Source of the DNA: Tildeniella nuda ZEHNDER 1965/U140
GTDB taxonomy: Bacteria > Cyanobacteriota > Cyanobacteriia > Leptolyngbyales > Leptolyngbyaceae
Assembly (NCBI GenBank): GCA_019358895.1
Contig: JAHHIG010000020.1
Coordinates: forward strand, 1-64,000
DNA length: 64,000 nt
Direction: 5' to 3'
The position numbers and the translations under genes are program-made. This document shows positions 8,708 through 34,036 of the stretch, in pieces. The notes beneath the pieces were generated by a model. The model made no database searches. It saw only the letters and a list, made by a program, of their open reading frames with translations, and was not told the origin of the DNA. How positions within the stretch are numbered: position 1 is the stretch's first letter; every line of letters begins with the position of its first letter.

Positions 8708-8713
8708 GTCTCT

Positions 8714-8842: not shown

Positions 8843-8847
8843 CTTCA

Positions 8848-9615: not shown

Positions 9616-9619
9616 GCGA

Positions 9620-11000
<1,381 letters not shown>

Positions 11001-11016
11001 GAAGCAGTAGTAGGCT

Positions 11017-11313: not shown

Positions 11314-11314
11314 G

Positions 11315-11389
11315 CAGTTGGCGATTTGCCAGTTTGCGATTTGCCAGTTTGCGATTGGTCAGTTGGCGATTTGTTAGTTGGCGATCGTG
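11315..11389 (+). repeat. Five tandem 15-bp repeats
   Basis: The unit CAGTTGGCGATTTGC is repeated five times with small changes, from 2 bp after the stop of the small membrane protein gene to 45 bp before the sqdX start. It can be read in frame with sqdX as PVCDLPVCD-like residues, but this is not part of the conserved protein. It separates sqdX from the two upstream genes. Confidence 0.8.
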
Positions 11390-11433
11390 TCCGCATTAGC
11401 GTTTTCCATTCACCCTTTTGGTTTTCCGCCCTT

Positions 11434-12546: not shown

Positions 12547-12650
12547 AGGCGATGCGGCAGGCAGCAATCGAATGCTGGGAAGTCAAAGTTAAGTCTGAAG
12601 TCGTGTGATTAAAGCTGTAAGCGTTCTAGATCCTCCACAAAGCTTTGCGT

Positions 12651-12884
12651 TCAAGCGTTGTTCTCACCCACTCCGAGCTGGCGCTTACTTTGCTTAAGCT
12701 GCTTCCAGAGCAACTTAATTGCCTGATACGACTCTTCTGGAGACAGTTTGCCGCCTGTTTCGAGTCCGCAAATGTAGCTTACTCGTTGTGAAAATTCTTG
12801 CAGATTGGCGTTAAACACCAAATTTTCTGGTTTGACTGTGCCCTGATAGCGCGATCGAGGGTACAAAAAATCAGTTTTGTCCAT
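12651..12884 (-). CDS. DUF7219 family cyanobacterial protein
   Basis: A 77-residue soluble protein starting MDKTDFLYPRSRYQG and containing LETGGKLSPEESYQAIKLLW. This matches a small cyanobacteria-specific family of unknown function (DUF7219). The start at 12884 is preferred over an upstream frame start because an AGGAG ribosome site lies about 10 bp before it on the minus strand. Confidence 0.8.
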   Translation of the reverse strand: MDKTDFLYPRSRYQGTVKPENLVFNANLQEFSQRVSYICGLETGGKLSPEESYQAIKLLWKQLKQSKRQLGVGENNA

Positions 12885-13444
12885 CAAGCTAATACTCCTA
12901 GTTTCAAACTTCTTCCGCAGCAACGCCGATGGCATCCACCGCAGACGTATATGTTAACCCAACGTTAACCTTTAGTGTCAATTTTCACAGCTAGTTCACA
13001 AATGGCGGTAGAAAGCTGAGACGAGAGGCAGTGGTGGTTTAGCTTTTAGATTCACTTCTAGCAACGATCGAGTAGCTGACTGCTGACCGCTATCCTTACA
13101 CCTTTAGGACTACCGCTGCCACATCTCATTCCCGATCGGATAGACAGGCGGGAATTTCTGCGTAATACACTAGGGGCTGTCATCAATGACAACTACACCT
13201 GACTTGCAACAAGGTTTCCAGCCCCTAGCCTGGTGTGTTGGGGCGGGCGCGATCATGCTGATACCGCAAGGTTTTGGAGCTAATTGGTGACGCGCCCTAA
13301 CCGACTTCAGTGGCAAGCAGCTTTGTTTTCGCTTCCTGCTTCGGTGCAGACCAACAGTTGGTTAGTTAAGCGTTTGAACGGGGGCGATCGAACCTTACAC
13401 GACTCCCATCAACACTTAATTCTTTAGAACGAAGCGTACTTGCT
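12885..13444. other. 560-bp region without a recognised gene
   Basis: No convincing ORF or RNA is seen. A heptamer-type fragment (GACTGCTGACCGCT) occurs near 13080-13092. AGGGGCTG near 13172 and CAGCCCCT near 13220 are complementary and could form a hairpin. Confidence 0.4.
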
Positions 13445-19554: not shown

Positions 19555-22500
19555 TTATCCAATACTGACTTTGCCCTCCGCTGCTTCAACAGGTTTAACC
19601 TGCTTGCGAGGTTTGAACGGATTGCGATCGGAAGCATCACGCAGCAGCCCCATAATAGCGGGAACAACGGTGGGTGTCAGGATAGTGGAGAAGGCGAGTC
19701 CACCCGTTAGCACGATGCCCAAGCCTTGATAGAGTTCTGCGCCCTGACCAGGCACCACCGCCAGCGGCAGCATACCCAGGACGCTAGTGCCCGCCGACAT
19801 GAAGATGGCGCGGAGACGATCGCGGGTGGCGTTGTAGAGCGAGGCATCGTAATCCTCACCTTCTTGCTGAAGTTGCAGGGCGCGATCGACCAGCAGAATC
19901 GCGTTGTTCACCACCACTCCAGTCAGGATAATGAAGCCCAGCGCGGTGATCATATCCAGCGGCACCACCCAACCCAGCACCCGATTGGCAAGCACCAGGC
20001 TCAGTAGCGCACCGCTCATGCCCATCGGCACCGTTGCCATAATCACCAGTGGATACATAAAGGAGCGGTAAAGCGCCACCAGCAACAGGTAGGTAATGAA
20101 AACAGAGAAGGCGAAGGCGACTGCCAGCTCAGTCACCGTTTTCGCCAGTTGATCGGCTGAACCTGCGAGTTCTAGACGGTAGCCTGCGGGAAGCTGCGAT
20201 CGCAACGGTGCCAAAATTTCAGCCTCCGTGCGCTGGACGAGGGAGCCAAGCGGTGCATCGGGGGCGAGGGAAACGGTCAGGGACACCGATCGCTCTAGAT
20301 CGACGTGGTTGATTACATCGGGTCCGGTGGTTTCGCGCACCTCGGCAACGTCACTCAGTTGGATCTGCCGCTCCCGTGCAAAAAGCGATAACTGGCGCAG
20401 TTGTTCGGGCGTTTCCACCGCTGCACTGTTGAGCTCGACCGAGACATCCAGTTCCTCTTTGCCGTCGATAAAATCGGATGCCAATCGTCCGCCCAGTGCT
20501 GCTTCCACCAGCGAACCGACTTCTGATTCGGATAGCCCAACTTCTGCCAGCCGCTCACGATTTGGGATCACCTGGATTTCGCCAGCACCCATCACAAAGT
20601 TCGATCGCACATTGCGGACACCGGGCAATTCGCGCAGTTTGCCTGTGATGTCTTGTTCCAGGTCGCTCAACTGATCCAGCTCAGATCCCACAATATCCAC
20701 ATCAAACTCTTTGCCAGGATCGCGAAAGATGGAAATACGCGTAGGAATGACAAAGCGATAGCCTGCAAAGTCGCTCGCCTTTGCCCGCAGGCGATCGACC
20801 ATTTCAGCCAGTCCAGCAGTGGTCGCAAACTCTGGTTTGAGGATGGTGGCAATGCCACGCAGGGCACCGGGACGATCGACATACATGATGCGATCGACTT
20901 CAGGCTGCGATCGCAGAAAGTCTTGCACGGGCTGCGATTGGCGAACCGCTTCGGGGATGCTGGTTCCCGGCATCGGCTCAGCCCGCAGCACCACCAGGTT
21001 ACGGTTGCCTTCGGGCAAATAGTCGGCAGGCGGCAGCAGGAGAATGCTAACCAGCAGCAACCCGACCGGAATGCCCAGCAGCATGAGTCTACGCCCCACC
21101 CGTCGCCGTCCGATCGACCAGCTTACGGTAGCGGCAAGGAAGTCTTCTAGCTTGCCCTGAAAGTAGCGAAACGTATCTGACGTGCGGTAGACCGCTTGCT
21201 GCACTTTGCCAAACAAATTGGAGGGCACCGCCGCAGGAGTAGAGGCACTCGTTGAGAGCATGCGCTGCGCCTCTGCCTGGTCAAGAAACAGCCCAGAGAG
21301 CATGGGCACCAGGGTAATCGCCGAGAAGAGGGCAAAGATGGCAGAACAGGACAGGGCGATCGCCATATCGGCAAACAACTGTCCCGCTTCTCCCGTCACC
21401 ATGATGAGCGGCAGAAAGACGATCACATTGGTCAGCGTCGAACCCAGCATGGCAGCCCACACTTCCTGGGTGCCTTCGATCGATGCCCGCATAACGCTCT
21501 TGCCCTGCTGCATGTGGGTGAAGATATTTTCAATCACCACGATCGAGCAATCCACCACCATACCGACCGCAAACGCGACTCCAGCCAGACTAATGAGATT
21601 CAGCGTGCGCCCCATCAGGTGCAGCACAATGAAAATAGCAACCAGGCTAATGGGAATCGTCAGCGCGACCACCGCAACCGTTCGCAGCGACCCCAGGAAC
21701 AGCAACAGCACGAGGGTGGCGAGTACGGCACCGCTGATCAGGTTTCCTTGCAACAGGTCGATCGACTGCTGAATGTATTGGCTTTCGTCGTAGTTGTAGG
21801 CAAAGCGGAGTGCCTCCCCTTGCCGATTCAGTTCCGTTTCTAATGCCGTGATGGTATCGCGCACACCTTTGGCAACCTCTGGCACATTCGCGCCGACTTG
21901 CCGAATCACCCCAATGGCAACGGTAGGAGTGCCGTTAAACACCAGCGCACTATCCTGCACTTTGCGCCCCATCTGCGCCTTTGCCACATCCCGCAGATAC
22001 ACGGTGCCAGACTGATCGCGCCGCAGCACAAAGCCCTCAATTTGCGCCAGATCTTGCGATCGACTCAATGTTCTCACCCGATATTCGCGTCGTCCCAGAA
22101 TTAACGGACCGCCCCGAATATCACGGTTGTTTGCCTGAAGGGTTTGCACCACATTGCCGATCGTCAGGTTGCGGTCTGATAGCGCTTTGGGATCAACTTT
22201 GACCTCGACTTCGCGCTGCTGTCCGCCTACGATCAAAAACTGCCCCGTACCTTCGACCCGTCTCAGGCGTGGCACAATCACCTCTTCTGCCAGATCGCGG
22301 TAGTGGTTGGGGGCGCCCTTACCATCTTGCGGCACCATCGGAATCCACATCATCGGCGAACTGCTGCCACCCACCAATTCCACATTCGATTCATCCGCTT
22401 CGGGAGGTAGACTGTCCGCTTGTTGCAGCCGATTGATGACATCAACCAAGCGCCCTTCCAGGTTGGCATCGGCATTAAATTCCAGCGTGATGCTGCTGCG

Positions 22501-22761
22501 TCCGGCACGGGAACTGCTGCCGATCTCCTGTACGCCCAAGACCTGCTCCATCTGTTCTTCGATCGGGCGCGTCACCAAATCTTCCACTTCGGTGGGTCCA
22601 GCACCGGGATAGGTGGTGGTGATGGTGATTTCGGGGCGATCGCCACCGGGCTGTAGCTCCAGCGGCAACCCAACCAGGGCAAAGACACCAAAGATAAAGA
22701 TCAAGCAGAACAAAACAAAGGTGCCGTGCCGCCACCGCACAGCCGTTTCGATGAAATTCAT
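19555..22761 (-). CDS. RND efflux transporter, inner-membrane pump (HAE1-like)
   Basis: A 1068-residue proton-driven RND pump with the usual two-half layout, each half with a large periplasmic loop and membrane helices. It starts MNFIETAVRWRHGTF. The TM4 proton-relay motif reads GMVVDCSIVVIENIF (one Asp kept; the second AcrB Asp is Cys), and the TM10 motif reads GVVVNNAILLVDRAL, lacking the AcrB Lys. These variations are usual for HAE1/MdtC-like pumps. With the membrane fusion protein 11 bp upstream it would need a TolC-type outer-membrane channel, not encoded here. The substrate cannot be told from sequence. Confidence 0.92.
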   Translation of the reverse strand: MNFIETAVRWRHGTFVLFCLIFIFGVFALVGLPLELQPGGDRPEITITTTYPGAGPTEVEDLVTRPIEEQMEQVLGVQEIGSSSRAGRSSITLEFNADANLEGRLVDVINRLQQADSLPPEADESNVELVGGSSSPMMWIPMVPQDGKGAPNHYRDLAEEVIVPRLRRVEGTGQFLIVGGQQREVEVKVDPKALSDRNLTIGNVVQTLQANNRDIRGGPLILGRREYRVRTLSRSQDLAQIEGFVLRRDQSGTVYLRDVAKAQMGRKVQDSALVFNGTPTVAIGVIRQVGANVPEVAKGVRDTITALETELNRQGEALRFAYNYDESQYIQQSIDLLQGNLISGAVLATLVLLLFLGSLRTVAVVALTIPISLVAIFIVLHLMGRTLNLISLAGVAFAVGMVVDCSIVVIENIFTHMQQGKSVMRASIEGTQEVWAAMLGSTLTNVIVFLPLIMVTGEAGQLFADMAIALSCSAIFALFSAITLVPMLSGLFLDQAEAQRMLSTSASTPAAVPSNLFGKVQQAVYRTSDTFRYFQGKLEDFLAATVSWSIGRRRVGRRLMLLGIPVGLLLVSILLLPPADYLPEGNRNLVVLRAEPMPGTSIPEAVRQSQPVQDFLRSQPEVDRIMYVDRPGALRGIATILKPEFATTAGLAEMVDRLRAKASDFAGYRFVIPTRISIFRDPGKEFDVDIVGSELDQLSDLEQDITGKLRELPGVRNVRSNFVMGAGEIQVIPNRERLAEVGLSESEVGSLVEAALGGRLASDFIDGKEELDVSVELNSAAVETPEQLRQLSLFARERQIQLSDVAEVRETTGPDVINHVDLERSVSLTVSLAPDAPLGSLVQRTEAEILAPLRSQLPAGYRLELAGSADQLAKTVTELAVAFAFSVFITYLLLVALYRSFMYPLVIMATVPMGMSGALLSLVLANRVLGWVVPLDMITALGFIILTGVVVNNAILLVDRALQLQQEGEDYDASLYNATRDRLRAIFMSAGTSVLGMLPLAVVPGQGAELYQGLGIVLTGGLAFSTILTPTVVPAIMGLLRDASDRNPFKPRKQVKPVEAAEGKVSIG

Positions 22762-22772
22762 GGAAGTCTCCT

Positions 22773-24116
22773 CTAGCTATTGCTGTTCTGCACAACTTTC
22801 ACAGGCGCACCGTCACGCAAGCCATCGCCGCCGCGTAGTACAAGGGGCTGTCGGGGTTGCAGGGCGTTGCTGTAGATGGCAACCTTCTCGCCCATATCGG
22901 TCACCAACTCCACTGGAATCTGCTTAGCTTTGTCACCGTCGATCGCAAACACCAACCACTGATTTTGTCGCTGGGTCAGCACGTCACGCGACACCACAAA
23001 GCTGGTGCGATCGGCGGGCATTTCAAGGGTACCCGCGATCGCCATGCCAGGAAGCAACCGCTGTCCCGCATTCTCCAGGCTGACCCGTATGCGCTGCCGC
23101 CGAGATGCTGCTTCTGCCGCTGGCACGACGGCGGTAATGGTGGTGCGCTGTTGCCAGTTGGGTAGCGCTCGTGAGGTAAGCTGAATGGGCATTCCAGCCG
23201 TAACTCTGCCCGTCAGGTCTTCGGGTAATTCCAGGAAAATATCAAGGCGATCGCCCGCAATCAGCGACACAATTTCGCCGTTGCTTTCCACATAGTCGCC
23301 CCGACTCAGCACACGTCGATCGACCACACCCGCAGAGGTTGCTTTCACCTGCGTCCGCTGCTGGGTTAACTGTGCCTGCTTGACTTCTGCCTGGGCTGCT
23401 GTTGCGTTTGCCCGCTGTGCCGCAATTTCTTCGCGAATAGGACCTGCCTGCGCTTCTGCTAGTTGCGCCTGTGCCTGGAGCCGTTCGCCCCGCGCCGTAT
23501 CCACACTAGCTTTAGCCTCGACCAGCAACCGTTGCGACAGTGCCCCATCTTTAACCAGGGCAGCAGTCCGACTGAGGTTATCGATCGCCTCCTGTTCACG
23601 AGCTGTAGCCGCGCTGAGTGCCGCCTTCCGCTGGGCGATAATTTCGGGACGAGTGCCCACTGTGAGCCGTGCCAGGTTGCTGCGCTCTTGTGCCAGCCGT
23701 GCCTGCGCTCTCGACAGTGCTAGCTGCTGGTCGGCATCGTCCAACACCGCGATCGTGGTGCCAGGTGAGACGCGATCGCCCGGTTGCACCAACAGTTCTT
23801 GAATCACGCCGCTGGTCTGCGCCCGCACGGTTGCCCGCTCTGCTGCCTCGACCTGCCCGATTAACTGTACGGGTCTGGCAGCACTGCCCTGAGCCAGCGC
23901 GATCGTTTCTACAGCGCGGGGTGGGGGCGCTTGTTGGGCGATCGCTGGCTTTGAGGCTTGCCCTGCAGCGAACGATCGCCAGACGGCAATACCGCCTGTG
24001 GTCAGCGCAAGTGCCAGTACCGCCCAGAGCCAGCGTTTTTGGGGCTTTGGCGACTGGTTTGTTGTCTCAGCGGTAGACGGGTCAGGTGTCTGAATTTGAG
24101 GGTCAACGTTGTTCAT
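22773..24116 (-). CDS. RND membrane fusion protein (periplasmic adaptor)
   Basis: A 447-residue HlyD/AcrA-type adaptor. There is a single N-terminal membrane helix (residues 30-47), then the lipoyl half-motif AERATVRAQTSGVIQELLVQ, and a long alpha-hairpin rich in Ala, Gln and Glu (about residues 130-250, coiled coil). The second lipoyl half (VKATSAGVVDRRVLSRGDYV) and beta-barrel/membrane-proximal domains follow. It links the pump to an outer-membrane channel. It is 11 bp from the RND gene and 244 bp downstream of the kinase gene, the gap holding a hairpin repeat. Confidence 0.92.
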   Translation of the reverse strand: MNNVDPQIQTPDPSTAETTNQSPKPQKRWLWAVLALALTTGGIAVWRSFAAGQASKPAIAQQAPPPRAVETIALAQGSAARPVQLIGQVEAAERATVRAQTSGVIQELLVQPGDRVSPGTTIAVLDDADQQLALSRAQARLAQERSNLARLTVGTRPEIIAQRKAALSAATAREQEAIDNLSRTAALVKDGALSQRLLVEAKASVDTARGERLQAQAQLAEAQAGPIREEIAAQRANATAAQAEVKQAQLTQQRTQVKATSAGVVDRRVLSRGDYVESNGEIVSLIAGDRLDIFLELPEDLTGRVTAGMPIQLTSRALPNWQQRTTITAVVPAAEAASRRQRIRVSLENAGQRLLPGMAIAGTLEMPADRTSFVVSRDVLTQRQNQWLVFAIDGDKAKQIPVELVTDMGEKVAIYSNALQPRQPLVLRGGDGLRDGAPVKVVQNSNS

Positions 24117-24297
24117 GGTTCGCGATGAGATGGCTAGAGAACAAAAGCGTTGCGTTGGTTATTCAGGAGTTTTAAGCAGGCGGATAAATTAGCAATAAAG
24201 ACTTTGTGAAAAAAAGTTTATCCTCACTTTACAATCTGCAACCAAAAGTGCCCGTAGCTAACTTGTCATTAACCTTTCGCTTCTAGGACTGATGCAA

Positions 24298-24362
24298 AGA
24301 TCCCCGACTTCTATGCTTGAGTTGGCTTTGAAGACAGAACTTTAATCAGAAGTCGGGGATCT
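24298..24362. repeat. Family D palindromic repeat with loop, between kinase and adaptor genes
   Basis: AGATCCCCGACTTCT and AGAAGTCGGGGATCT form a 15-bp perfect stem around a 35-base loop. The same arms, with a one-base loop, occur at 1154-1186. The element abuts the kinase stop codon and could attenuate transcription into the pump genes. Confidence 0.75.
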
Positions 24363-25824
24363 AAACACCTGATGCGTAAGTCCTGGCTTCTAATCTTTCG
24401 GCAGAAAGTTTAGTAGGCGTGGCGTTGAGCGGCATGACGATCGTAAACGTGGAGCCATGCCCGATCTGGCTGGCAATCTCCACACGACCGCCATGCGATT
24501 GAGCGATCGCCGCGACGATCGACAAGCCCAACCCGTAGCCTTCGCTATGGGGATCGCCCGTTGCCCGCACAAAGCGCTCAAAAATGCGGGACTGGTCGGC
24601 GGTGGCAATGCCTTCGCCCGTATCGCTGACCCACAGGTAGGCGTAGTCTCCTTTCACGGAGGAACCCAGCGTAATTGAATCGCCCGGTTTTGTATGTCGG
24701 ATGGCGTTTTGAATGAGATTCATTATGGCTTGCGTCAGCCGTTGGCGATCGACCGTGATCGGGCTTAACCCTTTCGATTCCAAACGCCAGGTGCGATCGG
24801 CAAGTCCCCGCGCTTTGAGATAAACTTCCTCCGTCAACCAATCCAACTCCTCTGGCTTGAGCCGCAAGAAGTCCGATCGCTCCGCTTTTACCAGCAGAAG
24901 TAAATCGTTGACCAGACGGCTCATGCGCTCCAGTTCATCCATCACCAGTGCGATCGAGGCTTCCTTTTCTGGCTGATACTTCAACATTTCCAGATGCCCC
25001 TGCATGACCGTAATCGGCGTGCGTAGCTCATGGCTGGCATCCTTTAAAAATTCCTTCTGGCTATCGAAGGCTGCTTGCAGGCGATCGAGCATTTCGTTCA
25101 CGGTCGTCGTCAACTCAGCAATTTCATCCCTGCCCTGCACCGGGAGGCGTTGCGTCATATCCGATTCGGTAATGGAGTGCGCCGTCTTGGTCAGCAGTCG
25201 GAGTGGATATAGCACCCGCCCTGCCGTAAACCAGGCAAGCAAAAAGAAGATCAGCAGCAGTACGAACGTCACTTGCATCACCAGCCCGATCGCACTCCGC
25301 GCAATGCGATAATCGGGCGTACTATCATGCAAAACCACGATCGAGCCACGTTCATTGGTTGCCTGCCAGGTGACAGGCTCGACGACGTAGTAAAGCTGTT
25401 TGCCCTGAGCATTGATGGCTTGGCGACGTTCTTCTGTCACTGTTGCCCAGGTTTGCATCAGTTCAGGGCGCTGCTTTAGCAAGTCTGACGGGAGTTCTGG
25501 CTTGGTGCTGTAAACGCGATCGCCCACCAGCATGATGATGTATTCGCCCCGCGTTGGCACATAGCTAGAGAGCAGCCGATCGAACAACACGTTGATATTA
25601 GTGGGTCCTAACCGTCCCTTTTCACGATGCTTTTGCACCAGCACCGTAAATTGGTTTGCCTGTTGCAAGGCGGAGTCTTCTGCCTGGATGCGGATGCGAT
25701 CGCAGAACAGGCTATACGTGGTTTGAATGGAGATAAAAACGGTGCCCGTTGTCATCAAAAAATACCAAACCAGCAGTCGGGTGCGGACACTGAAAAAGGC
25801 GCGGTGCCAACGGCTTTTTACCAT
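24361..25824 (-). CDS. Membrane sensor histidine kinase (efflux regulation)
   Basis: A 487-residue kinase: TM1 near residues 16-36, a periplasmic sensor segment (40-175), TM2 near 180-200, HAMP (200-255), HisKA with phospho-His in KDASHELRTPITVMQGH, and HATPase with the N box (NLIQNAIRHTKP) and G boxes (DTGEGIATADQ, GYGLGLSIV). It phosphorylates an OmpR regulator, probably the one at 18878. The CusS/BaeS-like layout and the linked RND pump suggest that it senses a pump substrate or envelope stress in the periplasm. Confidence 0.92.
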   Translation of the reverse strand: MVKSRWHRAFFSVRTRLLVWYFLMTTGTVFISIQTTYSLFCDRIRIQAEDSALQQANQFTVLVQKHREKGRLGPTNINVLFDRLLSSYVPTRGEYIIMLVGDRVYSTKPELPSDLLKQRPELMQTWATVTEERRQAINAQGKQLYYVVEPVTWQATNERGSIVVLHDSTPDYRIARSAIGLVMQVTFVLLLIFFLLAWFTAGRVLYPLRLLTKTAHSITESDMTQRLPVQGRDEIAELTTTVNEMLDRLQAAFDSQKEFLKDASHELRTPITVMQGHLEMLKYQPEKEASIALVMDELERMSRLVNDLLLLVKAERSDFLRLKPEELDWLTEEVYLKARGLADRTWRLESKGLSPITVDRQRLTQAIMNLIQNAIRHTKPGDSITLGSSVKGDYAYLWVSDTGEGIATADQSRIFERFVRATGDPHSEGYGLGLSIVAAIAQSHGGRVEIASQIGHGSTFTIVMPLNATPTKLSAERLEARTYASGV

Positions 25825-26033
25825 ACTAAAATCCCGTCAGTTTTTGCGACTAAAGGACATGGAAGCTACCTACACCAAGTTGCTAACAATCTATGATTTA
25901 AGCTTGGGATAAATTGCACCTAAACAAAAGATGAAAAAACTTTTATGCAACAAGATTGCTTCCAGTCGCTCAACGGACGAGGTTGTGAGTTTGGGTCATT
26001 GCATTGCGTTCTCTCAACTATTGAAAGATGTGA

Positions 26034-27086
26034 TTAAGGCATCGCTCTCTCGGTGGGCAACATTAGCACTTCGTGGATTGCTGTCGCTGCGTTTCCGCCT
26101 GTTTTGGTTCCACCACCAAACACAAAAATACGGTTGCCAACAGCCGATGCCCCTAATCCATGCCGTGGGGTGGGCAAGGGCGGTAATGCTTCCCAGCTAT
26201 TGGTTTTCGGGTCATAGACCCAACTCTCGGCAAAAACTTTCTGCTCTGGAACCCACTGTTCGCCGCCAAACACGTAAAGCTTACCGTTGAGTGAGGTTGC
26301 AGCCAGACCGCCTCTCGCTTGCGGCAGCGGCGATCGCGTCTCCCAACGATCGCGCTTCGGATCGTAAACCTCAAGCGTTGGCATGTTGACTTGGCGGTTA
26401 GTGCCATCAGCATTCTTAAAAAACTTGCGACCACCAACGACATAGATCTTGCCATCAATGACAGCCGATGCTGCACTGTTTCGCGGGGTTGGGGCATTGG
26501 CACGGGTTGACCAGCGCTGAGTCATTGGATCGAAAACTTCGTTTCGCACACTGTCGATGTGGTCATTGAACAGCCGAGCATCCTCAGTGGCTCGAACGCG
26601 CCCGCCAATCAGGTATAACTTGTCATCAATCACAGCGGCTATGCCCTCGGCGCGAGCTGCTGGCAGATCAGTACCTTTAGTCCAGGTATTAGAGGCAGGA
26701 TTGTAGATAAACATCGTCGGCTGTGCGCGCCAGTCTGGAAACCCACCTGTGAAACCGCCAACTCCGTAGAGCAAACCCTTCACTGCCGACAGCGTAATGT
26801 GGTGACGGGCTTCAGGGAGCGATCGCAATTGTGTCCAGGCGTTATTGACCGGATCGTAAGACTCGAAGTGAGCTGAGAATCCAGTGTTGGGGCTGAGTAA
26901 ACCACCAACCACGTAAATTTTTCCATTTAAAACGTCTGGATAAAGCTCTTGCCGAGCGATCGTTGGCGGGGCAGCTTTTGTCCAGTACGGCATCTGGCTT
27001 GGCGCTTGACTGAGTACGGGCGACCATAGCGCAATGACCGAAACGATCGAGATCGACAGGGGAAACAGATATCTAGGTGGCATCAT
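26034..27086 (-). CDS. Exported Kelch-repeat protein
   Basis: A 350-residue secreted protein: signal peptide (residues 1-27), then six Kelch beta-propeller blades marked by GKIYVVGG, GLLYGVGG, KLYLIGG, GKIYVVGG, GKLYVFGG and NRIFVFGG. These propellers bind ligands or proteins and some are carbohydrate-active; no catalytic residues are evident. It lies 12 bp downstream of a Tat-exported aldo/keto reductase gene and is likely co-transcribed with it. Confidence 0.9.
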   Translation of the reverse strand: MMPPRYLFPLSISIVSVIALWSPVLSQAPSQMPYWTKAAPPTIARQELYPDVLNGKIYVVGGLLSPNTGFSAHFESYDPVNNAWTQLRSLPEARHHITLSAVKGLLYGVGGFTGGFPDWRAQPTMFIYNPASNTWTKGTDLPAARAEGIAAVIDDKLYLIGGRVRATEDARLFNDHIDSVRNEVFDPMTQRWSTRANAPTPRNSAASAVIDGKIYVVGGRKFFKNADGTNRQVNMPTLEVYDPKRDRWETRSPLPQARGGLAATSLNGKLYVFGGEQWVPEQKVFAESWVYDPKTNSWEALPPLPTPRHGLGASAVGNRIFVFGGGTKTGGNAATAIHEVLMLPTERAMP

Positions 27087-27098
27087 ACAAACTCCATC

Positions 27099-28238
27099 TC
27101 AAACGATTGGACGTGGATTGGGCAGGCGAACCAAGCCATTAAAATTTTTGCCGGGATACCAGGACGTTTGGAGCAGGTTGTCAAAACCGGGAAGGCTTTC
27201 CATATGTCTTACCATCCGGGTACGCATTGCACGGTCGGGTAGCAATCCTCTTAATGCCCCCATATTCTCAGCAACGTGGTCGGGGTTTGTGGTTGCGGGA
27301 ATCGCGCAGGTGACAGCCGAGTGAGAAATCACATACTTGAGAAAAAACTGTGCCCAATTTTCGCACCCAATCTCGCTGGCAAAAGCAGGGAGTGGTTGCC
27401 CCTTCACCAACTCAAACAGACGGGCTTTCTCAAAGGGCATATTGGCTAAGACTGCGGTTCCTCGCGCCGCTGCCGCTGGAAGAATTCTGTCTTCGACTTC
27501 ACGCTGACGCATTGAGTAGCGAAGTTGCACAAAGTCCAGATCGCCGTTCTCAATCCATTTCTCAAGCGCCGCAAAATACAACGGATCGTGGTGAGTCACA
27601 CCCACGTAGCGAACTTTACCTTCTTTTTTCCATGCCTTGAGCAGAGGCAAAATCGCATCTACATTCACCAAGCTATGAACCTGCATCACATCAATGCGAT
27701 CGCGCGACAATCGCTTCAGTGATTGTTCAAACTGACGCTGCGCCTGGCTGCGATCGCCCAGATACTCGCCCGTTGCCCAGGCTTTGTTCGTAATAAACAA
27801 ATCATTGGTCAAGCCGAGTGTTTTGGCAAATTCGCCTACGTTCACTTCCGCCATACCGTAGAGCAGTGAGGTATCCACCAGTCGCCCGCCTGCATCCCAA
27901 AAGCGGCGCATCACTTGTTGCAGCCGATCGCGGGGCTGATTAGCCAAAACATCAAAGGTCATGAATGTTCCGAGACCGATCGCGGGCAGTTTCTCCTTTG
28001 TGCGCGGGATCTCTTTCGTGATGATTGGCGATGGTTGGTTTCGAGACGGTGGCGATGATTGAGTTTGAGTTTGACTCTGTGCCTGTGCGGTCTTGGCAAG
28101 AGTGGGCATCAAGGCAGCGGCAGCGGCACCAAATCCCAACAATCCAAGGGCAGACCGACGGGAAACACTGCGCCGCATTGCTGGACGCGCATAATGGTTA
28201 TTGTGTATTGCATCATCCTTCGGGCTGCCGTTCATCAT
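27099..28238 (-). CDS. Tat-exported aldo/keto reductase
   Basis: A 379-residue NADPH-dependent oxidoreductase fold with a twin-arginine leader (SRRSALGLLGFGAAAAALM). The AKR domain follows: GLGTFMTFD, DTSLLYGMAEVNVG (Asp and Tyr of the tetrad), FITNKAW (Lys), MQVHSLV (His). An exported AKR must bind its cofactor before Tat transport. The ATG at 28238 is preferred because AAGAGGAT lies 6 bp upstream; an ATG 24 bp further up is possible. It is in one run with a SnoaL-like gene and a Kelch gene, divergent from a LysR regulator. Confidence 0.88.
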   Translation of the reverse strand: MMNGSPKDDAIHNNHYARPAMRRSVSRRSALGLLGFGAAAAALMPTLAKTAQAQSQTQTQSSPPSRNQPSPIITKEIPRTKEKLPAIGLGTFMTFDVLANQPRDRLQQVMRRFWDAGGRLVDTSLLYGMAEVNVGEFAKTLGLTNDLFITNKAWATGEYLGDRSQAQRQFEQSLKRLSRDRIDVMQVHSLVNVDAILPLLKAWKKEGKVRYVGVTHHDPLYFAALEKWIENGDLDFVQLRYSMRQREVEDRILPAAAARGTAVLANMPFEKARLFELVKGQPLPAFASEIGCENWAQFFLKYVISHSAVTCAIPATTNPDHVAENMGALRGLLPDRAMRTRMVRHMESLPGFDNLLQTSWYPGKNFNGLVRLPNPRPIV

Positions 28239-28317
28239 TACTTTATCCTCTTGCTTTTTCACTAGTTGTAAAAGTCGTGCCTGTATTCTTGCTGCTTACG
28301 TTGTGAAGCCTCTGTTT

Positions 28318-28776
28318 TTAACTGGGCATTGGAGCCAACAGCCATGCACCGATTTGATGCAGCATTCCGAACCAATCTTCCAAGTGCCAGGTGTGTGTAA
28401 TGCGATCGCCGTCAAAGTGATGAAACTCATGCAAGGCGATCGAGATTGGCTTTCCCGTCGGCTGAAGACCAATGATTTCCCCGCGGTGGGTCGCAACCAT
28501 CCGCGCCCGTACACCAACACGGTTTGGTTGTGCAACCACGTCATCAACCATGATCTGCAAGTCCGGAAACGCAGCAAAGAACATCTGCATGAGCGGCTTG
28601 AAACCCTCACGACCAGCACCTTGACCGGGCGCGAGGGGCATATCCTGCCAGTCCGAGGTCACGGCTTCGTTGAGAAGGCTAGGGTTTTTGTCACTGAATG
28701 CCCGATAAAACGTTTCGAGTGACTGTTTTTGCGCCACTGTCAGTGCTGAAGTTTGAATCGTTGTCAATGAATGCAT
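28318..28776 (-). CDS. SnoaL-like ester cyclase / NTF2-fold protein
   Basis: A 152-residue NTF2-fold protein of the SnoaL polyketide-cyclase-like family: FYRAFSDKNPSLLNEAVTSD, then FKPLMQMFFAAFPDLQIMVDD and the His-rich core ALHEFHHFDGDRITHTW. Members act on small hydrophobic molecules, but many are uncharacterised. It is the first gene of a minus-strand run with the Tat aldo/keto reductase and Kelch protein, and is divergent from the LysR gene that probably controls it. Confidence 0.82.
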   Translation of the reverse strand: MHSLTTIQTSALTVAQKQSLETFYRAFSDKNPSLLNEAVTSDWQDMPLAPGQGAGREGFKPLMQMFFAAFPDLQIMVDDVVAQPNRVGVRARMVATHRGEIIGLQPTGKPISIALHEFHHFDGDRITHTWHLEDWFGMLHQIGAWLLAPMPS

Positions 28777-28854
28777 GAAATCCTCAGTTGATGATGAACG
28801 CGAGTGAAGCTATTACAACCATTACACGGTATTTGTGATGTGTCCAATGCATAC

Positions 28855-28891
28855 TTTAGATAGGTTATATATCAAAATTGCTATATAGTGA
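28855..28891. promoter_or_regulatory. AT-rich inverted element in the LysR/SnoaL divergent promoter
   Basis: TATATA-TCAAAATTGC-TATATA (28866-28887) gives two identical hexamers around a 10-bp spacer immediately before the LysR ATG. Each hexamer is self-complementary. It resembles a T-N11-A-type LysR site in layout, which is inference. Confidence 0.35.
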
Positions 28892-28895
28892 AATC

Positions 28896-29816
28896 ATGGC
28901 TCAGCAGTTCCCCAATCTCTCTCGCCTGGACCTGAATCAGCTTCTGGCTCTACAAATCATCCTGGAGGAGAGGCATGTTACTCGTGCGGCTGCCCGATTC
29001 TCTCTAAGTCAACCAGCGATGAGCCGTGTACTCGGTCGGCTGCGCTTGGCACTTGGCGATGACCTGCTCGTCCGTAGCGGCATAGGGTACGAGCGAACGC
29101 CACGCGGCGATCGATTGTTGCAAGAGCTGGAAGTCCTTCTGCCTCGCCTCAACGCGGTGATCGGAAGCAACGATTTTGATCCTTCTACCTCGCAACAGCG
29201 CTTCCGGGTGACCGGCACTGACTACGCGGCTGCCGTTATCATCGGTGGCACTGTGCGGCTCTGCCGCAAATTTGCTCCCGGCGTTCGCTGCGAAGTCGTG
29301 GGCTGGACGCAAGATAGTTACCGTTACGCGGAGATGGGTCGCTGCGATATCGCACTCGGTGTCGGTAGCGTACCAGCCATACCCACAGAATTAAAAATGG
29401 AAGTGCTGTACCAGGAACAATTCGTGTGCCTCATGAGTGCAGACAGCAGTTTCAATGACGAGCGGTTTTCCCTGGTTGAATACCTGCGTCGTCCACATGC
29501 GGTGGTCGCAATAGCGGAGGGGCAGCAAACAATGATCGATCGTCCGCTTGCTGATATTGGGAAGGTGAGAAATGTTGTGCTCCAGTCACCCTACTTCATG
29601 GCAACCGCGCTGAGTATTGTGGATACCGACTTGATCCTCACCGTGCCCACACGTTTGGCACTCGAACTCTCAAAGTTGGCGGACTTCCGGCAGGTGTTAC
29701 CCCCTCAAGAGATTGGTAGCTTCCCTTACACAATGGTCTGGCATCCCCGGCTTGATGGTGATTGCGGGCAGATGTGGTTCCGTGATCAAATCCGAGCGGT
29801 TGTGAAACGATGTTGA
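28896..29816 (+). CDS. LysR-family transcriptional regulator
   Basis: A 306-residue LTTR: N-terminal winged helix (LDLNQLLALQIILEERHVTRAAARF, recognition helix in SQPAMSRVLGRLR) and a two-lobed effector domain from about residue 95. The NodD/PnbR-like shape of the HTH (LNQLLAL, RTPRGDRL) suggests regulation by a small aromatic or similar inducer. The ATG at 28896 is chosen over a TTG at 28878. It probably regulates the divergent SnoaL-AKR-Kelch genes. Confidence 0.92.
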   Translation: MAQQFPNLSRLDLNQLLALQIILEERHVTRAAARFSLSQPAMSRVLGRLRLALGDDLLVRSGIGYERTPRGDRLLQELEVLLPRLNAVIGSNDFDPSTSQQRFRVTGTDYAAAVIIGGTVRLCRKFAPGVRCEVVGWTQDSYRYAEMGRCDIALGVGSVPAIPTELKMEVLYQEQFVCLMSADSSFNDERFSLVEYLRRPHAVVAIAEGQQTMIDRPLADIGKVRNVVLQSPYFMATALSIVDTDLILTVPTRLALELSKLADFRQVLPPQEIGSFPYTMVWHPRLDGDCGQMWFRDQIRAVVKRC

Positions 29817-29859
29817 GAACTAATTTCTCCACTGCGATCGCGACAAGCGCCACATTGGG

Positions 29860-30174
29860 ATGCTGAGCGATCACACCTTCACCATTCTTCTAGCCGGGTG
29901 GCTATCCTACCACCGGAAAGAAGTTGCTTTGAAAGGAAATGCAACCATTTCTGCGGCAGGCAAAAAAGGTTCAGACCAGATCAAGGTGGAAATCAAATCG
30001 TTGAAAGAATGGGCTGAAGTCGAGTCTGAGTCCGATCCGAAGAACATCTTCAAAAATCCAGATGAATTTGTCAAGAAATGGATTGTTACAGGCAACGCTA
30101 AGTTAATCCGACGTAAGAGGGTGTTGCCTCCAGAGCAACCCCAGTCGTCCATCAGCAGGGAAACACGGAGATGA
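29860..30174 (+). CDS. Unrecognised 104-residue ORF, possibly a fragment
   Basis: This lysine- and glutamate-rich protein has no family I recognise. The part from GNATISAAGKKGSDQIKVEI onward looks like real coding sequence, whereas the first 25 residues may not be native. It sits between a LysR gene and an IS200/IS605 relic in a decayed region, so it may be a truncated gene. Confidence 0.35.
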   Translation: MLSDHTFTILLAGWLSYHRKEVALKGNATISAAGKKGSDQIKVEIKSLKEWAEVESESDPKNIFKNPDEFVKKWIVTGNAKLIRRKRVLPPEQPQSSISRETRR

Positions 30175-30178
30175 AGGG

Positions 30179-30292
30179 ATGATTGCGAAATACGTCAAGA
30201 ATCAGGGTAATGAATATCTCAAGCTACACCGAGATGAGCAGCTTACTCTTTTTTGATTCTGATACCCCGTCTGCTTGCAGCGGGGTAGTTCA
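30179..30292 (+). mobile_element. IS200/IS605 relic: TnpA C-terminus plus right-end hairpin
   Basis: A 25-codon frame (30179-30256) encodes MIAKYVKNQGNEYL, then KLHRDEQLTLF. IAKYVKNQ corresponds to the helix holding the catalytic tyrosine of Y1 transposases. It is followed by the imperfect hairpin TACCCCGTCTGC / GCAGCGGGGTA and ends GTAGTTCA, the usual form of an IS605-type right end. The rest of the element is missing. The right end joins directly onto the truncated SMEK gene. Confidence 0.65.
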
Positions 30293-30684
30293 TTCGCCGA
30301 TTCTGAGTAAGAATCCTGTTTCTTTTTCAGAATATAGATAATCAGTCGATGGTATTTTGAGTACTGGTTATACTTAGTAAATTGCTCCAGGGTATGCTTG
30401 ACTTTTTTAAGATCAGGAGTAGCTGTGACTTGAACACAGATTCCCGCTACTTCGTCAGCTAAATCAATACCAGGATATTGATTATTATCCTCGGCGTAAT
30501 TGATATTCTCTAAGCTCCAGCCATACATTTCTTTGAGTAACGGTATCAATATCGTTTCAGCAGCTTTATTGAGATCTGTTTTGCCCATTGAGGTCGCACT
30601 TTCGATCTGAGCGACAAAACGAGCCATCAATTCAATGATTCGATTTCGAGAGTGCTCTAACCTCATTAACAGCCTCAAACTCAA
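30293..30684 (-). pseudogene. SMEK-domain gene, 3' truncated at an IS200/IS605 end
   Basis: Codons for about 130 residues match the SMEK domain: FVAQIESATSMGKTDLNKAA, then LIPLLKEMYGW, YPGIDLADEVAGICVQVTAT and HRLIIYILKKKQDSYSES. SMEK is normally the N-terminal part of large proteins linked to bacterial conflict and defence (often before STAND NTPase or nuclease parts). Here the frame runs into the IS end and stops at 30202 after about 30 unrelated residues, so the effector part is lost. The domain name is from memory of the family and should be confirmed. Confidence 0.65.
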
Positions 30685-31039
30685 AAATCTTCTCGAAGTT
30701 TTTCTCGCCAGTCACAGACAGCAGTATTTTGCTGTTCATGACAAGTATTTTAGCTACTTCAAAGAGCGATCGCCCCTCCCTCCCATTTCTCTCGGCACCG
30801 CAAGCCAAGAGGCAGCCTCATAGAAGGGACGATTGCTCATCTCCTCCACTGACTTTAACTCACCGTTACCCTCGCTCCATTCCCATTCGTCTCCACGCTG
30901 GATGCAGGAATAGGTGCGATCGTCGTTGTTGGCGTAGCGCTCACAGCCTTGCGTGTAGTGCGCTTACGGGGCGTTCCCCCTGCCTATCTTGTAGAGCCAA
31001 AAGGCATCTGCAACAGTCGCCTTTGAGATCCCAACGATC
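30685..31039. other. Decayed region with short membrane-protein-like remnant
   Basis: No intact gene is seen. On the + strand at about 30863-31026 one frame reads through a hydrophobic segment (GAIVVVGVALTALRVVRLRG) to PPAYLVEPKGICNSRL and a stop. It may be debris of a transfer-system membrane gene linked to the VirB10-like tail downstream. Confidence 0.3.
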
Positions 31040-31312
31040 GTGTTGCAGTACCCGAACATCATGTTCAAGTACCTGAATATCGCGTTTAGGTTCCTCAACA
31101 TCGTGTTTGGGTTTCTCAACATCGTGTTCAAGTACTCAGCGATCGTGTTTGAGTACCGAAATATCGTGTTTGGGTTCCTCAACATCGTGTTTGGGTTCCT
31201 CAACATCGTGTTGGAGTACCGAAATATCGTGTTGAGGTTCTTTAACGTCGTGTTTGGGTTCCTAGATCTCGTAGTTGGGTTCCCAAACATTGTGTTTCAG
31301 TTCCTCAACAGG
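31040..31312 (+). repeat. Thirteen tandem 21-bp repeats
   Basis: The unit GTGTTTGGGTTCCTCAACATC occurs 13 times with point changes and no length change. On the + strand it reads as heptads such as VFGFLNI and VFEYRNI. On the minus strand another frame reads VEEPKHD and VLEHDVRVLQHD heptads, which look like a coiled coil but are broken by one TAG and one TGA. Which strand was the original coding strand is unresolved. Confidence 0.85.
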
Positions 31313-31597
31313 CTGAGTGCGTTGGGTCAACCAGGAGCCTTGCTCAACCAGCCGACGGAAGAGTTTAGCAAGGCGATCGACTCAAACCGCTTTTCCAGCA
31401 CCACCATGCGGCGATCGCGCCAACCCAGTCTTTTACCGTCACTGCTTGATGGGTTCTTTACCACCACAGCGCAACGCCTTAATCAACGCTCTGAGCAACA
31501 AACGCAAGACCTGATCAAACGCAGCACGCTTGCGATCGTTCCCGTAGGCACCGAGGTTTCTGTGGTCATTAACAGCTTTTTCCGTGTCAACCGCTAA
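31313..31597 (+). pseudogene. VirB10/TrbI-like C-terminal remnant
   Basis: Downstream of the 21-bp repeats the same frame encodes LPSLLDGFFTTTAQRLNQRS and then TLAIVPVGTEVSVVINSFF. This resembles the last part of VirB10/TrbI, where an Arg-type stretch is followed by the PxGTxVxVxVN beta-strand end. VirB10 links inner and outer membrane in conjugative type IV secretion. Only about 70 residues remain and no T4SS neighbours are present, so this is probably plasmid-derived debris. Confidence 0.45.
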
Positions 31598-31624
31598 TTT
31601 GACTGAACATTGGAGGTTTCTTTA

Positions 31625-31849
31625 ATGAAGCGAATTTTTGTCAGTGCTGTCCTTAGTCTAAATTTGATGAGTCCGGTAGCTCTACCAGTGATGGCAGTAC
31701 CAACCTACCAAGTCATCAGCCGTGATGCGGCGATGCAGAGTGCCGTAGAGGTGCAGGCGGAACCAGGGCGATCAACAGCAGGAGTCCTCCAATCTTTTTG
31801 GCAGACCGAAGCAGGGGCAAAAACCCTGGAAGTTTTGCCAAAACCCTAA
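31625..31849 (+). CDS. Short exported protein, possibly truncated
   Basis: A 74-residue ORF with a good signal peptide (MKRIFVSAVLSLNLMSPVAL, ending PVMA) and GGAGG 11 bp upstream of the ATG at 31625. The mature part has no family I recognise and ends abruptly. Similarly spaced small exported proteins occur next to trb/vir genes on plasmids, so it may belong with the VirB10-like remnant upstream. Confidence 0.5.
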   Translation: MKRIFVSAVLSLNLMSPVALPVMAVPTYQVISRDAAMQSAVEVQAEPGRSTAGVLQSFWQTEAGAKTLEVLPKP

Positions 31850-31987
31850 AACCTTCTCCTGACAATACTTTCATTAAATTGAAGATTGCCAGCATGAGTT
31901 CTCAAGAAAGTTGGAAGAGTACTTTTTAGACAGGTTTGCCCAAAGCTAACCTGGAGAGCTTACAGGAAAAGGATTTTAGCGCTGAGA

Positions 31988-32080
31988 GTCGCAACCGTCT
32001 TCCCAGAGATGGGTGGGCTGAAAGGAGCTAGTTTTTAAGTAAAAGCTTTGGAGGGCTGAAAGAAGCGCTGCGATCTCACC
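31988..32080 (+). CRISPR. Type V-K-like minimal CRISPR: full repeat, short repeat, tRNA-homing spacer
   Basis: The segment 31988-32024 is 37 nt long. It starts GTCGCAACC and ends GGGTGGGCTGAAAG, matching in length, 5' CAAC and 3' GGGTGGG(T/C)TGAAAG the repeats of cyanobacterial Cas12k systems. A second, shortened unit ends GGAGGGCTGAAAG at 32062. It is followed directly by AAGCGCTGCGATCTCACC (32063-32080), which matches GAGCGCTGCGATCGCACC in the neighbouring tRNA-Ala gene at 16 of 18 positions. A shortened repeat with a short spacer against a tRNA gene is the known form of the delocalised homing guide of V-K transposons. No tracrRNA or cas12k was recognised upstream. Confidence 0.75.
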
Positions 32081-32220
32081 ATTAGGCTCAATTCGCTTAA
32101 TCTGACGATTTCAGCCAAAACGACATTAATGTGCGAAACGCTAATAAACTCTCATTTAACGACATTAATGTGCGGATGCAGCAAAAATGCCCTAAAACGA
32201 CATTAATGTGCGAACGTACA
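32081..32220 (-). mobile_element. CRISPR-associated (V-K) Tn7-like transposon end, relic
   Basis: Read inward from 32220 on the minus strand, the end is TGTACGTTCGCACATTAATG, followed by two more copies of the CACATTAATGTCGT core. A TGTAC terminus with several spaced TnsB-type sites is the form of V-K CAST ends. The terminus lies exactly 66 bp from the GTA that precedes the guide match in tRNA-Ala, within the 60-66 bp offset reported for this family. The opposite end, transposition genes and cas12k were not found in the window. Confidence 0.75.
32120..32212 (+). repeat. Three ACGACATTAATGTGCG sites, 38-39 bp apart
   Basis: Identical 16-bp copies occur at 32120-32135, 32159-32174 and 32197-32212. 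The core ACATTAATGT is palindromic. They are proposed TnsB-binding sites of the transposon end. Confidence 0.9.
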
Positions 32221-32234
32221 GCACTTTCAACCTA

Positions 32235-32307
32235 TGGAGAGTAGGGGAATCGAACCCCTCGCCTCTGCGGTGCGATCGCAGCGCTCTACCAACTGAGCTA
32301 ACTCCCC
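32235..32307 (-). tRNA. tRNA-Ala (anticodon CGC)
   Basis: The 73-nt minus-strand sequence folds as a full cloverleaf. The acceptor is GGGGAGT / ACTCTCC with the alanine identity pair G3:U70, and the D arm is GCTC..GAGC. The anticodon stem is CTGCG / CGCAG with loop ATCGCAC, giving anticodon CGC, and the T arm is GGGGTTCGATTCCCC. No CCA is encoded. The HIP1 octamer GCGATCGC spans the anticodon arm and covers the anticodon. The gene is the apparent homing target of the neighbouring CAST relic. Confidence 0.95.
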
Positions 32308-32349
32308 AACAAACGCGAGATTTGCTTCGACATCTTATCATTCCCTGCC

Positions 32350-33066
32350 TCAACCTGCTTTTGGTGCGGCTGTCTGATCGTAGCTTTGCTGTACGCGATC
32401 GAGTTCCAAGTCAGAAAGGTAATCGACCACCCAGTTGGCGCGGCGCTGAAGCATGTGAAACGGGTAGGTGTTAGCAACGCCTACTACAGGAATGTTGGCT
32501 CGTTTGGCGGCTTCGATGCCCGCAAACGTATCTTCGATCGCCAGACATTCTGACGGTTTGAGGTTGAGGTTGCGATCGCTTTGGTTGAGGCGATCGACGG
32601 CAAGCAGGTAGCCATTGGGTTCCGGCTTGCTGGGCAAACGCTGGTCGCCAGAGACAATCACTGGAAACTGGTCGCTCAGTTGCAGACGCTTGAGTACGGA
32701 GTCAATTTCGACTCGGAGTGCACCGCTCACGATCGCCAGTTTGAGCTTTGCCGCTCGGAGCTTGAACAGCAAATCTTGTAAGCCTGGATAGACTGGCAGG
32801 GCTTCCAGTTGGTCTAATTGTTCCTGGTAAAACACTGCTTTGCGGGCAATCAGCTTGCTGACATAGTCATCCGTCACCACTCGCCCTCGGTGGGTTAGTA
32901 GGTCTGTAATACAGGCGCGATCGTTCCGCCCCAAACAAAACTGACGGAATTCTCCTGGCTTCGATCGCAGGTTTTCTTCCAGCAGCAGTTGGTTAATTAG
33001 TTTTTCGTGGAGTGGCTCATCGTTGATGATGATGCCGTTAAAGTCAAAAAGAACCGCCTTAAGCAT
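32350..33066 (-). CDS. HAD-superfamily phosphatase/phosphomutase-like protein
   Basis: A 238-residue HAD hydrolase of the beta-phosphoglucomutase-like group, with a helical cap (about 16-85). Motif I reads FDFNGIIINDE, so the nucleophile Asp is present but the usual second Asp (general acid/base) is Asn. Motif II is IVSGA, motif III Lys is in PSKPEPNGYLLA, and motif IV is CLAIEDTFAGIEAAKRA. The Asn change, if fixed in this cyanobacterial subfamily, suggests altered chemistry. The substrate is unknown. It lies next to the tRNA-Ala gene. Confidence 0.88.
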   Translation of the reverse strand: MLKAVLFDFNGIIINDEPLHEKLINQLLLEENLRSKPGEFRQFCLGRNDRACITDLLTHRGRVVTDDYVSKLIARKAVFYQEQLDQLEALPVYPGLQDLLFKLRAAKLKLAIVSGALRVEIDSVLKRLQLSDQFPVIVSGDQRLPSKPEPNGYLLAVDRLNQSDRNLNLKPSECLAIEDTFAGIEAAKRANIPVVGVANTYPFHMLQRRANWVVDYLSDLELDRVQQSYDQTAAPKAG

Positions 33067-33166
33067 GTGCGTATTGAATGACAGGTGAGAGGTTTGAGTG
33101 ATTAAGTTTTAGTGTTAGACGATCTATTCTCTAACAACCAACAACCAATCACCAACAACTCTCTGC

Positions 33167-34036
33167 TCAGCCCATTGCCCATTGTCGATCGCCCCTCTCA
33201 ACGTCAGTCGCTGACCCAAATTCAACGGTTTGATACGGCAACGGTTTAATGCCACGGGTAATCTGGTGCAGCCACCACCACTCTTGAGTGTGGACTGCCT
33301 CAAACCGCGCTGCGCCCATCCATGCGTCCACATTACCGCCCGCGTACGCCTGAATGTAAGGTTCTTCAAAAATCTGTGTCAGCCATTCTGTTTGGCGCAG
33401 CATTTTTTGGTTGCCGTCCAGAATGGCAACTTCGCCACCCACTGTCAGTAAACGGTAGCTCTCTTGCAAAATCGCTTGAGAGACAGCAGGCGGCGTTTCG
33501 TGGAAGAGTAGCGACGCTGTGACCAAATCGAAGGATGCCTCAGGCAAGCCAGTCTGTTCAGCGTTGCCATGCCGCCACTGAATGTTTAAGCCTGCCTGCT
33601 GTGCTTTGTGCTCGGCGACAACCAGCATATAGGGCGATAGATCTAACCCAATGACTTCTGCATGAGGAAATGCCTGTTTGAGCAACAGCGTCGTAGAACC
33701 CGTGCCACAGCCTAGATCCAGAATCCGACGCGGCTTGGACTGGATGGCATCCAACAAGCCCTGGCGCACCAACGTTTCGCCCGGAGGCAGCGCGTATTGG
33801 GTGATGGGGTCATAGGAAACAGCCGCGCTGACGTTCAGATAACCACCCTCAATGCCGTGGAAGTTCTGGCTACTGTAATAAGCGGGATAGATTAGTCCAG
33901 TGTCGCTGAGTCGATCGCTGGCGGTTTGCCAGTCGATGCTTTCATAAAAGCGCCGTAGCCCTTCCTGATCAATTAAAAACGTTTTGACAACGGGTGCAAG
34001 AAAGCGCTCGAAGATTGTGTCTTTGCGAACTGCCAT
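33167..34036 (-). CDS. Class I SAM-dependent methyltransferase
   Basis: A 289-residue enzyme with the Rossmann-type SAM motifs RILDLGCGTGSTTLLL (I), VIGLDLSPYML (post-I), WRHGNAEQTGLPEASFDLVTA (II) and LLTVGGEVAILDG (III). A conserved-looking N-terminal helical extension of about 100 residues precedes the domain. The substrate is unknown; the family includes methyltransferases of quinones, lipids and small metabolites. It shares the minus strand with the HAD gene, 100 bp apart. Confidence 0.88.
   Translation of the reverse strand: MAVRKDTIFERFLAPVVKTFLIDQEGLRRFYESIDWQTASDRLSDTGLIYPAYYSSQNFHGIEGGYLNVSAAVSYDPITQYALPPGETLVRQGLLDAIQSKPRRILDLGCGTGSTTLLLKQAFPHAEVIGLDLSPYMLVVAEHKAQQAGLNIQWRHGNAEQTGLPEASFDLVTASLLFHETPPAVSQAILQESYRLLTVGGEVAILDGNQKMLRQTEWLTQIFEEPYIQAYAGGNVDAWMGAARFEAVHTQEWWWLHQITRGIKPLPYQTVEFGSATDVERGDRQWAMG

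Follow-up and report, generated by a model that had tools for sequence, protein, structure and literature searches.

The CRISPR-side end of a type V-K transposon left beside tRNA-Ala(CGC) in Tildeniella nuda

What is the array-like sequence that adjoins the tRNA-Ala(CGC) gene of Tildeniella nuda ZEHNDER 1965/U140, and what became of the element it came from? The gene lies in a window of 64,000 nucleotides, the whole stretch of DNA that was analysed, at the start of contig C7. An earlier note on this DNA had proposed that the sequence is one end of a type V-K CRISPR-associated transposon (CAST, a Cas12k transposon) homed to this tRNA, with the genes of the element deleted or lying beyond rearrangements. 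Passages of PMC9938897 describe V-K CASTs with 37-nt repeats, a truncated repeat of ~12 nt, an anchor guide of ~17 nt usually directed against a tRNA gene, a GTN PAM, and a PAM-to-end distance of 46-82 nt apart from a single case of 147. The features of the locus, with their strands, are listed here.

31010-31779 (+): host region copy adjoining the relic and cut at the junction, with a second copy on C31
31779-31780 (no strand): junction of host sequence and transposon remnant, as assembled; similarity to C31 stops at 31779
31780-31790 (+): last bases of the tracrRNA region, AGGAGTCCTCC, from alignment with the six loci that have the region
31791-31987 (+): stretch from the tracrRNA region to the CRISPR repeat, inside pieces 90-91% identical to G005 and G006
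31988-32024 (+): the sole remaining 37-nt CRISPR repeat, from the sequence
32051-32062 (+): truncated repeat (R*), with the same stub in G005 and G006 and one base off in G007
32063-32080 (+): anchor (homing) guide against tRNA-Ala, 16/18, its first base unlike G005, G006 and G007
32120-32135 (+): putative TnsB-type site 1, from the sequence
32159-32174 (+): putative TnsB-type site 2, from the sequence
32197-32212 (+): putative TnsB-type site 3; a ~21-bp unit between the last two sites of the relatives is absent here
32215-32220 (+): transposon terminus, TGTACG read inward; the 16 end bases are identical in both C9 ends and the C28 end
32221-32225 (no strand): target-site duplication GCACT, matched at C28:9963-9959
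32234-32308 (-): tRNA-Ala(CGC), the attachment gene, intact (ARAGORN and Rfam RF00005)
32269-32286 (-): protospacer inside the tRNA gene, from the sequence
32287-32289 (-): GTA PAM, with GTA likewise in five other insertions measured

Re-reading of the coordinates by script agreed with what the earlier note had seen at the locus. The 37-nt repeat ends in GGGCTGAAAG, the 12-nt stub GAGGGCTGAAAG ends at 32062, and 16 of the 18 bases after the stub match the minus strand of tRNA-Ala at 32286-32269, behind GTA. Three identical copies of ACGACATTAATGTGCG, all exact, start at 32120, 32159 and 32197, and CGTACA ends at 32220, which is 66 bp from protospacer base 32286. At up to two mismatches the window contains four matches to the 15-base site core (three exact, at the locus), where 0.14 are expected, and none of 100 shuffles reached four. 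ARAGORN called tRNA-Ala(cgc) at 32234-32308 on the minus strand, and the tRNA was the sole family reported by Rfam at gathering thresholds. On this re-reading and the homology described below, window positions 31780-32220 are the CRISPR-side end of a type V-K CAST. The truncated repeat with a short anchor guide against a tRNA gene is present and common to G005, G006 and G007, as is a GTN PAM (here GTA) with the end within 46-82 nt, and TGTAC-type termini with several putative TnsB-type sites are seen at both ends when the partner end on C28 is included. The array and the tracrRNA region, which we named from its position between cas12k and the array as in a section of PMC9938897, are reduced to one 37-nt repeat and the last bases of the region. 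As far as published excerpts describe the ShCAST/AcCAST/AnCAST group, the window end has the repeat length, stub, anchor guide, PAM and end spacing of that group. Unlike its members, the element has no cas12k, tnsB, tnsC or tniQ beside its ends, a tracrRNA region down to its last bases, and ends on two contigs.

The assignment is borne out by relatives. A search with 31740-32320 over 97 genomes gave a match in 89, with the tRNA alone in most of the matches listed. Among these matches, the array side, the end and the tRNA occur together in two congeners, G005 and G006, and at the start of a G007 contig, and the stretch from tracrRNA to array occurs alone in G057, G026, G008, G033, G002:C37 and contig C9 of the genome itself. 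The array side without the tRNA (query 30-285) matched G005 at E 4e-97 and G006 (from 38 on) at 1e-91. A homologous V-K element is thus present at the same site in both genomes, and across 31780-32220 the identical bases number 400 of 439 aligned in G005 and 397 of 436 in G006 (91%, gaps excluded). These elements, which we call lineage B, sit at the same tRNA with a near-identical guide. Upstream, G005 has an intact cas12k of 655 aa (NCBIfam V_Cas12k 824 bits, cut-off 150; E 3e-173 against the solved ShCas12k), and in G006 the gene is split over two frames (query residues 3-79 and 78-654). Unlike the window end, both genomes keep cas12k and the tracrRNA region, and they have two array repeats and four TnsB-type sites where the window has one repeat and three sites. 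The window end thus lacks one array repeat and one of the four terminal sites; the ~21-bp size of the missing unit comes from comparison of the relatives, as the pairwise aligner placed the gap differently against G005 and G006. The distance from PAM to end, with GTA in every case, is 66 bp in the window, 65 in G005, G006 and C9, 62 in G007 and 64 in a lineage-A element of G002. The repeat and ends therefore do resemble those of Cas12k systems (G005, G006 and C9), and no transposon-free relative was found to keep the same sequence beside this tRNA, two points on which the earlier note had made its proposal depend. In G001, G003 and G004, where the flanks were seen, the tRNA gene has neither an element nor element sequence beside it, and G002 carries a different CAST there. 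In G005, a genome rated 100% complete, no close TnsB was found (best match 38%), while the TnsB of G006 is 77% identical to that of C9. The lineage-B CAST of G005 (C89, L125 and L136; C46, L176 and L177), with its intact cas12k and no close TnsB, may perhaps still be targeted, although its own genes could not mobilise it.

The left border of the remnant was set by a second copy of the host region. Positions 31010-31485 are 93% identical to C31:129686-130140 and 31641-31779 are 98% identical to C31:130138-130276, with 31486-31640 absent from the C31 copy; 31613-31776 is also 76% identical to a stretch of C9. Similarity to the transposons begins at 31769 (G005) and 31777 (G006). In an alignment of six loci, a conserved body of at least ~350 bases lies between cas12k and the array and ends in GGAGTCCTCC, and the window retains only its last bases. 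Because repeats were misplaced in arrays of unlike length, only the tracrRNA part of this MAFFT alignment of the whole end region was used. From its position we infer that the conserved body is the tracrRNA, which would pair with the repeat through a putative anti-repeat, CTTTCCGACCC in four of the six loci and CTTTCCGGCCC in G005 and G006; this anti-repeat is absent from 31601-32330 of the window.

The DNA upstream of the junction was also considered as CAST cargo. This was ruled out for 1203-12971 by gene order in G001, as this part of the window is collinear with G001:C17:671-12293 in eight pieces. Further along, 22.0-25.8 kb matches G002:C71, 26.1-29.8 kb matches G004:C562, and a large share of 13-30 kb has matches in other congeners; 30.1-31.8 kb matches several unlinked places. 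The collinearity and the congener matches argue for host chromosome rather than cargo inside the window end, except in 30.1-31.8 kb. An ORF of short NIVFGFLN-like repeats occupies 31040-31597, in the host region copied on C31. Another ORF, at 30202-30684, has a SMEK domain (Pfam, 133 bits) and was named Aga_REase-PNTD1-PNTD2 by PADLOC (164 bits, covering just the N-terminal part of the model), and is possibly a truncated defence gene.

The other end of the element was sought with the terminal 16-mer, which has four exact copies in the genome: the window end, both C9 ends, and C28:9942-9957. At up to three mismatches the search gave 37 matches, 4 of them exact, and the backwards-pattern control gave 39, so only exact matches were used. 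The end on C28 is of the tnsB side and shares 75% identity with the corresponding C9 end across 215 bp (sides are named here by their genes; the tRNA side is called the left end in parts of PMC9938897). Just outside it, GCACT at C28:9963-9959 equals bases 32221-32225 outside the window end. A target-site duplication of 5 bp is a feature of V-K elements, and one is present here across the window and C28; a 5-bp match by itself would arise by chance about once in 1000. When the outer flanks are joined with a single GCACT, they align to G002:C58 across tRNA-Ala at 380 of 448 aligned bases, and that G002 site is uninterrupted. With GCACT on both outer sides and flanks continuous with G002, a single insertion most likely gave rise to both the window end and the C28 end. 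A second end elsewhere in the genome with TGTAC and further sites, which the earlier note had suggested looking for, is therefore found on C28 together with a matching duplication. The same comparison gave no match for the C9 element (AAATG and CCTTG), nor for G005 (AGGCT and ACAAC) or G006 (CCCGT and ACAAC), whose ends lie on different contigs. Inside the window, a left end with the site core in the other orientation gave no match at up to two mismatches, and no end was seen by eye upstream of the relic as TGTACG (whole window) or TTCGCA (20001-34000). A pattern search of the genome with the internal sites missed the partner end too.

The C28 end has itself lost its neighbouring gene. Its conserved part spans ~213 bases. 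Further in, where no tnsB is present, comes a ZacC-like fragment in the opposite orientation, which stops at C28:9678, 280 bases short of the terminus. Contig C46 of G005 is arranged alike, with an alignment that spans the end and the Zac-like genes, again with no tnsB. This shared arrangement suggests that tnsB was lost at this end probably before this genome and G005 split, although the arrangement may instead reflect a shared horizontal origin. The cargo at C28:1690-9731 aligns piecewise to G005 at 88-94% identity, and some stretches of G005 are absent here. We take the absences to be deletions, since PADLOC recovers ZacA, ZacB and ZacC only as partial matches to their models. The stretch C28:1323-9678 (L168) carries Zac-like defence genes, a UvrD-like helicase and a PD-(D/E)XK nuclease.

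Outside the C28 end lies a remnant of a second element. Three pieces of C28:9967-10528 are 78-92% identical to the right part of the V-K CAST of G002, which we call lineage A. That CAST is also at tRNA-Ala and has a 712-aa Cas12k (NCBIfam V_Cas12k 640 bits), three repeats that differ in sequence, a stub, and GAGCGCTGCGATCGCACC as its guide, with its end 64 bp away. It is aimed at the same protospacer but differs from lineage B in its repeats and end sites, and in matched stretches its Cas12k and the C9 protein share 35-44% identity. On C28 the match stops just before cas12k, with metabolic genes next; the stub and guide are intact at C28:10217-10191, matching the tRNA at 18/18, and the terminus is short by about five bases relative to G002. 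A lineage-A remnant and a lineage-B end at the same tRNA show that two V-K lineages used one protospacer successively, the later insertion going in between the earlier one and the tRNA. A passage of PMC8649781 reports one bacterium with two V-K CASTs at different loci. Our literature search on tandem insertion returned no description of stacked V-K CASTs, which we do not take as absence from print. The two lineages, with unlike repeats and ends, are aimed at the same 18 bases and are stacked at one tRNA, and this raises the testable question of whether target immunity is confined to elements of one lineage. Elements of this kind are already known; the new detail is the stacking and decay at one site, and the earlier note is extended by a partner end carrying the matching duplication and by an older CAST, of a different lineage, on which the element is stacked.

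Where are the genes of the element? The tRNA-Ala locus has no Cas12k, for which reason we class it as a relic rather than a working V-K CAST, and the one match in the genome is at C9. The ORFs flanking the window end and the C28 end include no tnsB, tnsC or tniQ. A genome-wide search for the four genes had been suggested earlier. Ours covered Cas12k, TnsB and TniQ. It found TnsB in two places only, C9 (100%) and, as a weak match, C24 (27%), and TniQ by Pfam at C24 only, the TniQ of C9 being missed by Pfam. The C24 matches belong to another transposon (C24:369986-373666, L013 and L014), in which a distant TnsB-like protein is accompanied by a protein with a TniQ domain. With genes absent at both ends and host sequence joined at 31779, the earlier view that the genes were deleted or moved beyond rearrangements holds.

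The C9 element is a paralogue, from C9:312030 (TGTACG) to 346489 (CGTACA; labels L009, L008 and L005). Its order is TnsB (624 aa, PADLOC TnsB V-K 836 bits), TnsC (288 aa, PADLOC TnsC V-K 379 bits), TniQ (182 aa, PADLOC TniQ V-K 247 bits), cargo, Cas12k (655 aa), tracrRNA region, three repeats, stub and guide. The TniQ has no Pfam or NCBIfam match, and ShTniQ structures also match it. Its guide has a 17-base match to tRNA-Thr(GGT), preceded by GTA and lying 65 bp from the end, and by its gene content the element is a complete-looking CAST, homed to tRNA-Thr(GGT). It has the 16 terminal bases, the 3' end of the repeat, and the layout and spacing of the window end, but differs in its complete-looking gene set and its home, and 284 of 398 aligned bases are identical between the two ends.

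From what the sequence itself contains (the ends, the PAM spacing, GCACT, the layout of guide and stub, the C28 partner, the lineage-A neighbour and the gene absences), a history can be proposed. With cas12k-bearing relatives at the same tRNA, a paralogue and a partner end, the central claim of the earlier note, one end of a V-K CAST homed to tRNA-Ala(CGC), is upheld, and we consider it very likely that the window carries the tRNA-proximal end of a dead lineage-B CAST at this gene. The layout, PAM, spacing and duplication suggest that the element would have been delivered by Cas12k with an anchor crRNA together with TnsB, TnsC and TniQ. The machinery would later have been lost through deletions, and the element would have been split by a chromosomal rearrangement. 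The gene loss, the lost repeat, the lost ~21-bp unit, and the first base of the guide, which is unlike that of G005, G006 and G007, point to decay. The stub probably survives as a passive scar, as the tRNA gene limits deletion from its side and further deletion would damage that gene. The locus records a possible fate of a CAST after landing, in which the genes go but the tRNA gene remains intact and the guide and the end are retained.

Could the stub still function? Its crRNA or TnsB-type sites might be used with the C9 machinery, aiming insertions or giving immunity, a reading that we regard as improbable. C9 offers all four proteins together with a tracrRNA region, both elements have repeats with the 3' end GGGCTGAAAG, the 16 terminal bases are identical, and V-K CASTs seem to possess target immunity according to an excerpt of PMC11406308. 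At the window end, however, the tracrRNA region and all that lies between it and cas12k are absent in cis, the change in the first base of the guide and the lost TnsB-type unit look like drift, and element B landed beside the end of element A, so that an end gave no protection across lineages. The termini were kept while the genes vanished, and with the identical terminal bases this makes action of the C9 machinery in trans conceivable if doubtful, leaving the stub as a non-autonomous element end or an immunity mark at tRNA-Ala; such a stub end would be able to move or rearrange host DNA.

Far less probable than action in trans is a complete element fragmented by assembly, with its genes in gaps between C28:1 and C7:1. 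The inner sides of the window end and the C28 end both run to contig starts, and C28 starts with a repeat common to the ends of several other contigs. As the assembly has 38 contigs and 96.25% completeness, C28 and C7 may not be linked, and genes in gaps would escape. This reading is opposed by host sequence just upstream of 31780, where cas12k and the tracrRNA are expected, by the ZacC-like fragment just inside the C28 end, where tnsB is expected, and by the conserved host chromosome at 1203-12971. An isolated CRISPR-like repeat with a chance tRNA match, aided by the HIP1-like GCGATCGC core (the guide match contains GCGATC, a caveat of the earlier note), is least credible of all and can practically be set aside, since G005 and G006 have the same guide, stub, repeats and ends next to a cas12k gene at this tRNA.

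How frequent are such scars? Of 80 named loci chosen by the neighbouring hydrolase gene, the 42 with the exact tRNA-Ala protospacer string were counted, the other 38 lying outside the count. In eight of the 42, within flanks of up to 11 kb, AAAG is followed by the guide with up to four mismatches, 190-405 bases from the protospacer. The flank contains a cas12k match in four of the eight (L015, L017, L019 and L059, pieces only) and none in L027 (3284 bases), L030 (2999 bases) and L079 (9867 bases); the 636 bases of L068, also with no cas12k, are too short to tell. As three of the eight stub loci have no cas12k in 3.0-9.9 kb, such scars seem to recur, and recurrent scars could be used to trace past insertions. 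Degenerated Cas12k proteins, 12 in number, are noted in a passage of PMC9938897. At L037 a lineage-B-like end sequence, GTGCGAATCTACAC, lies directly beside tRNA-Ala with no guide found, and is possibly another scar.
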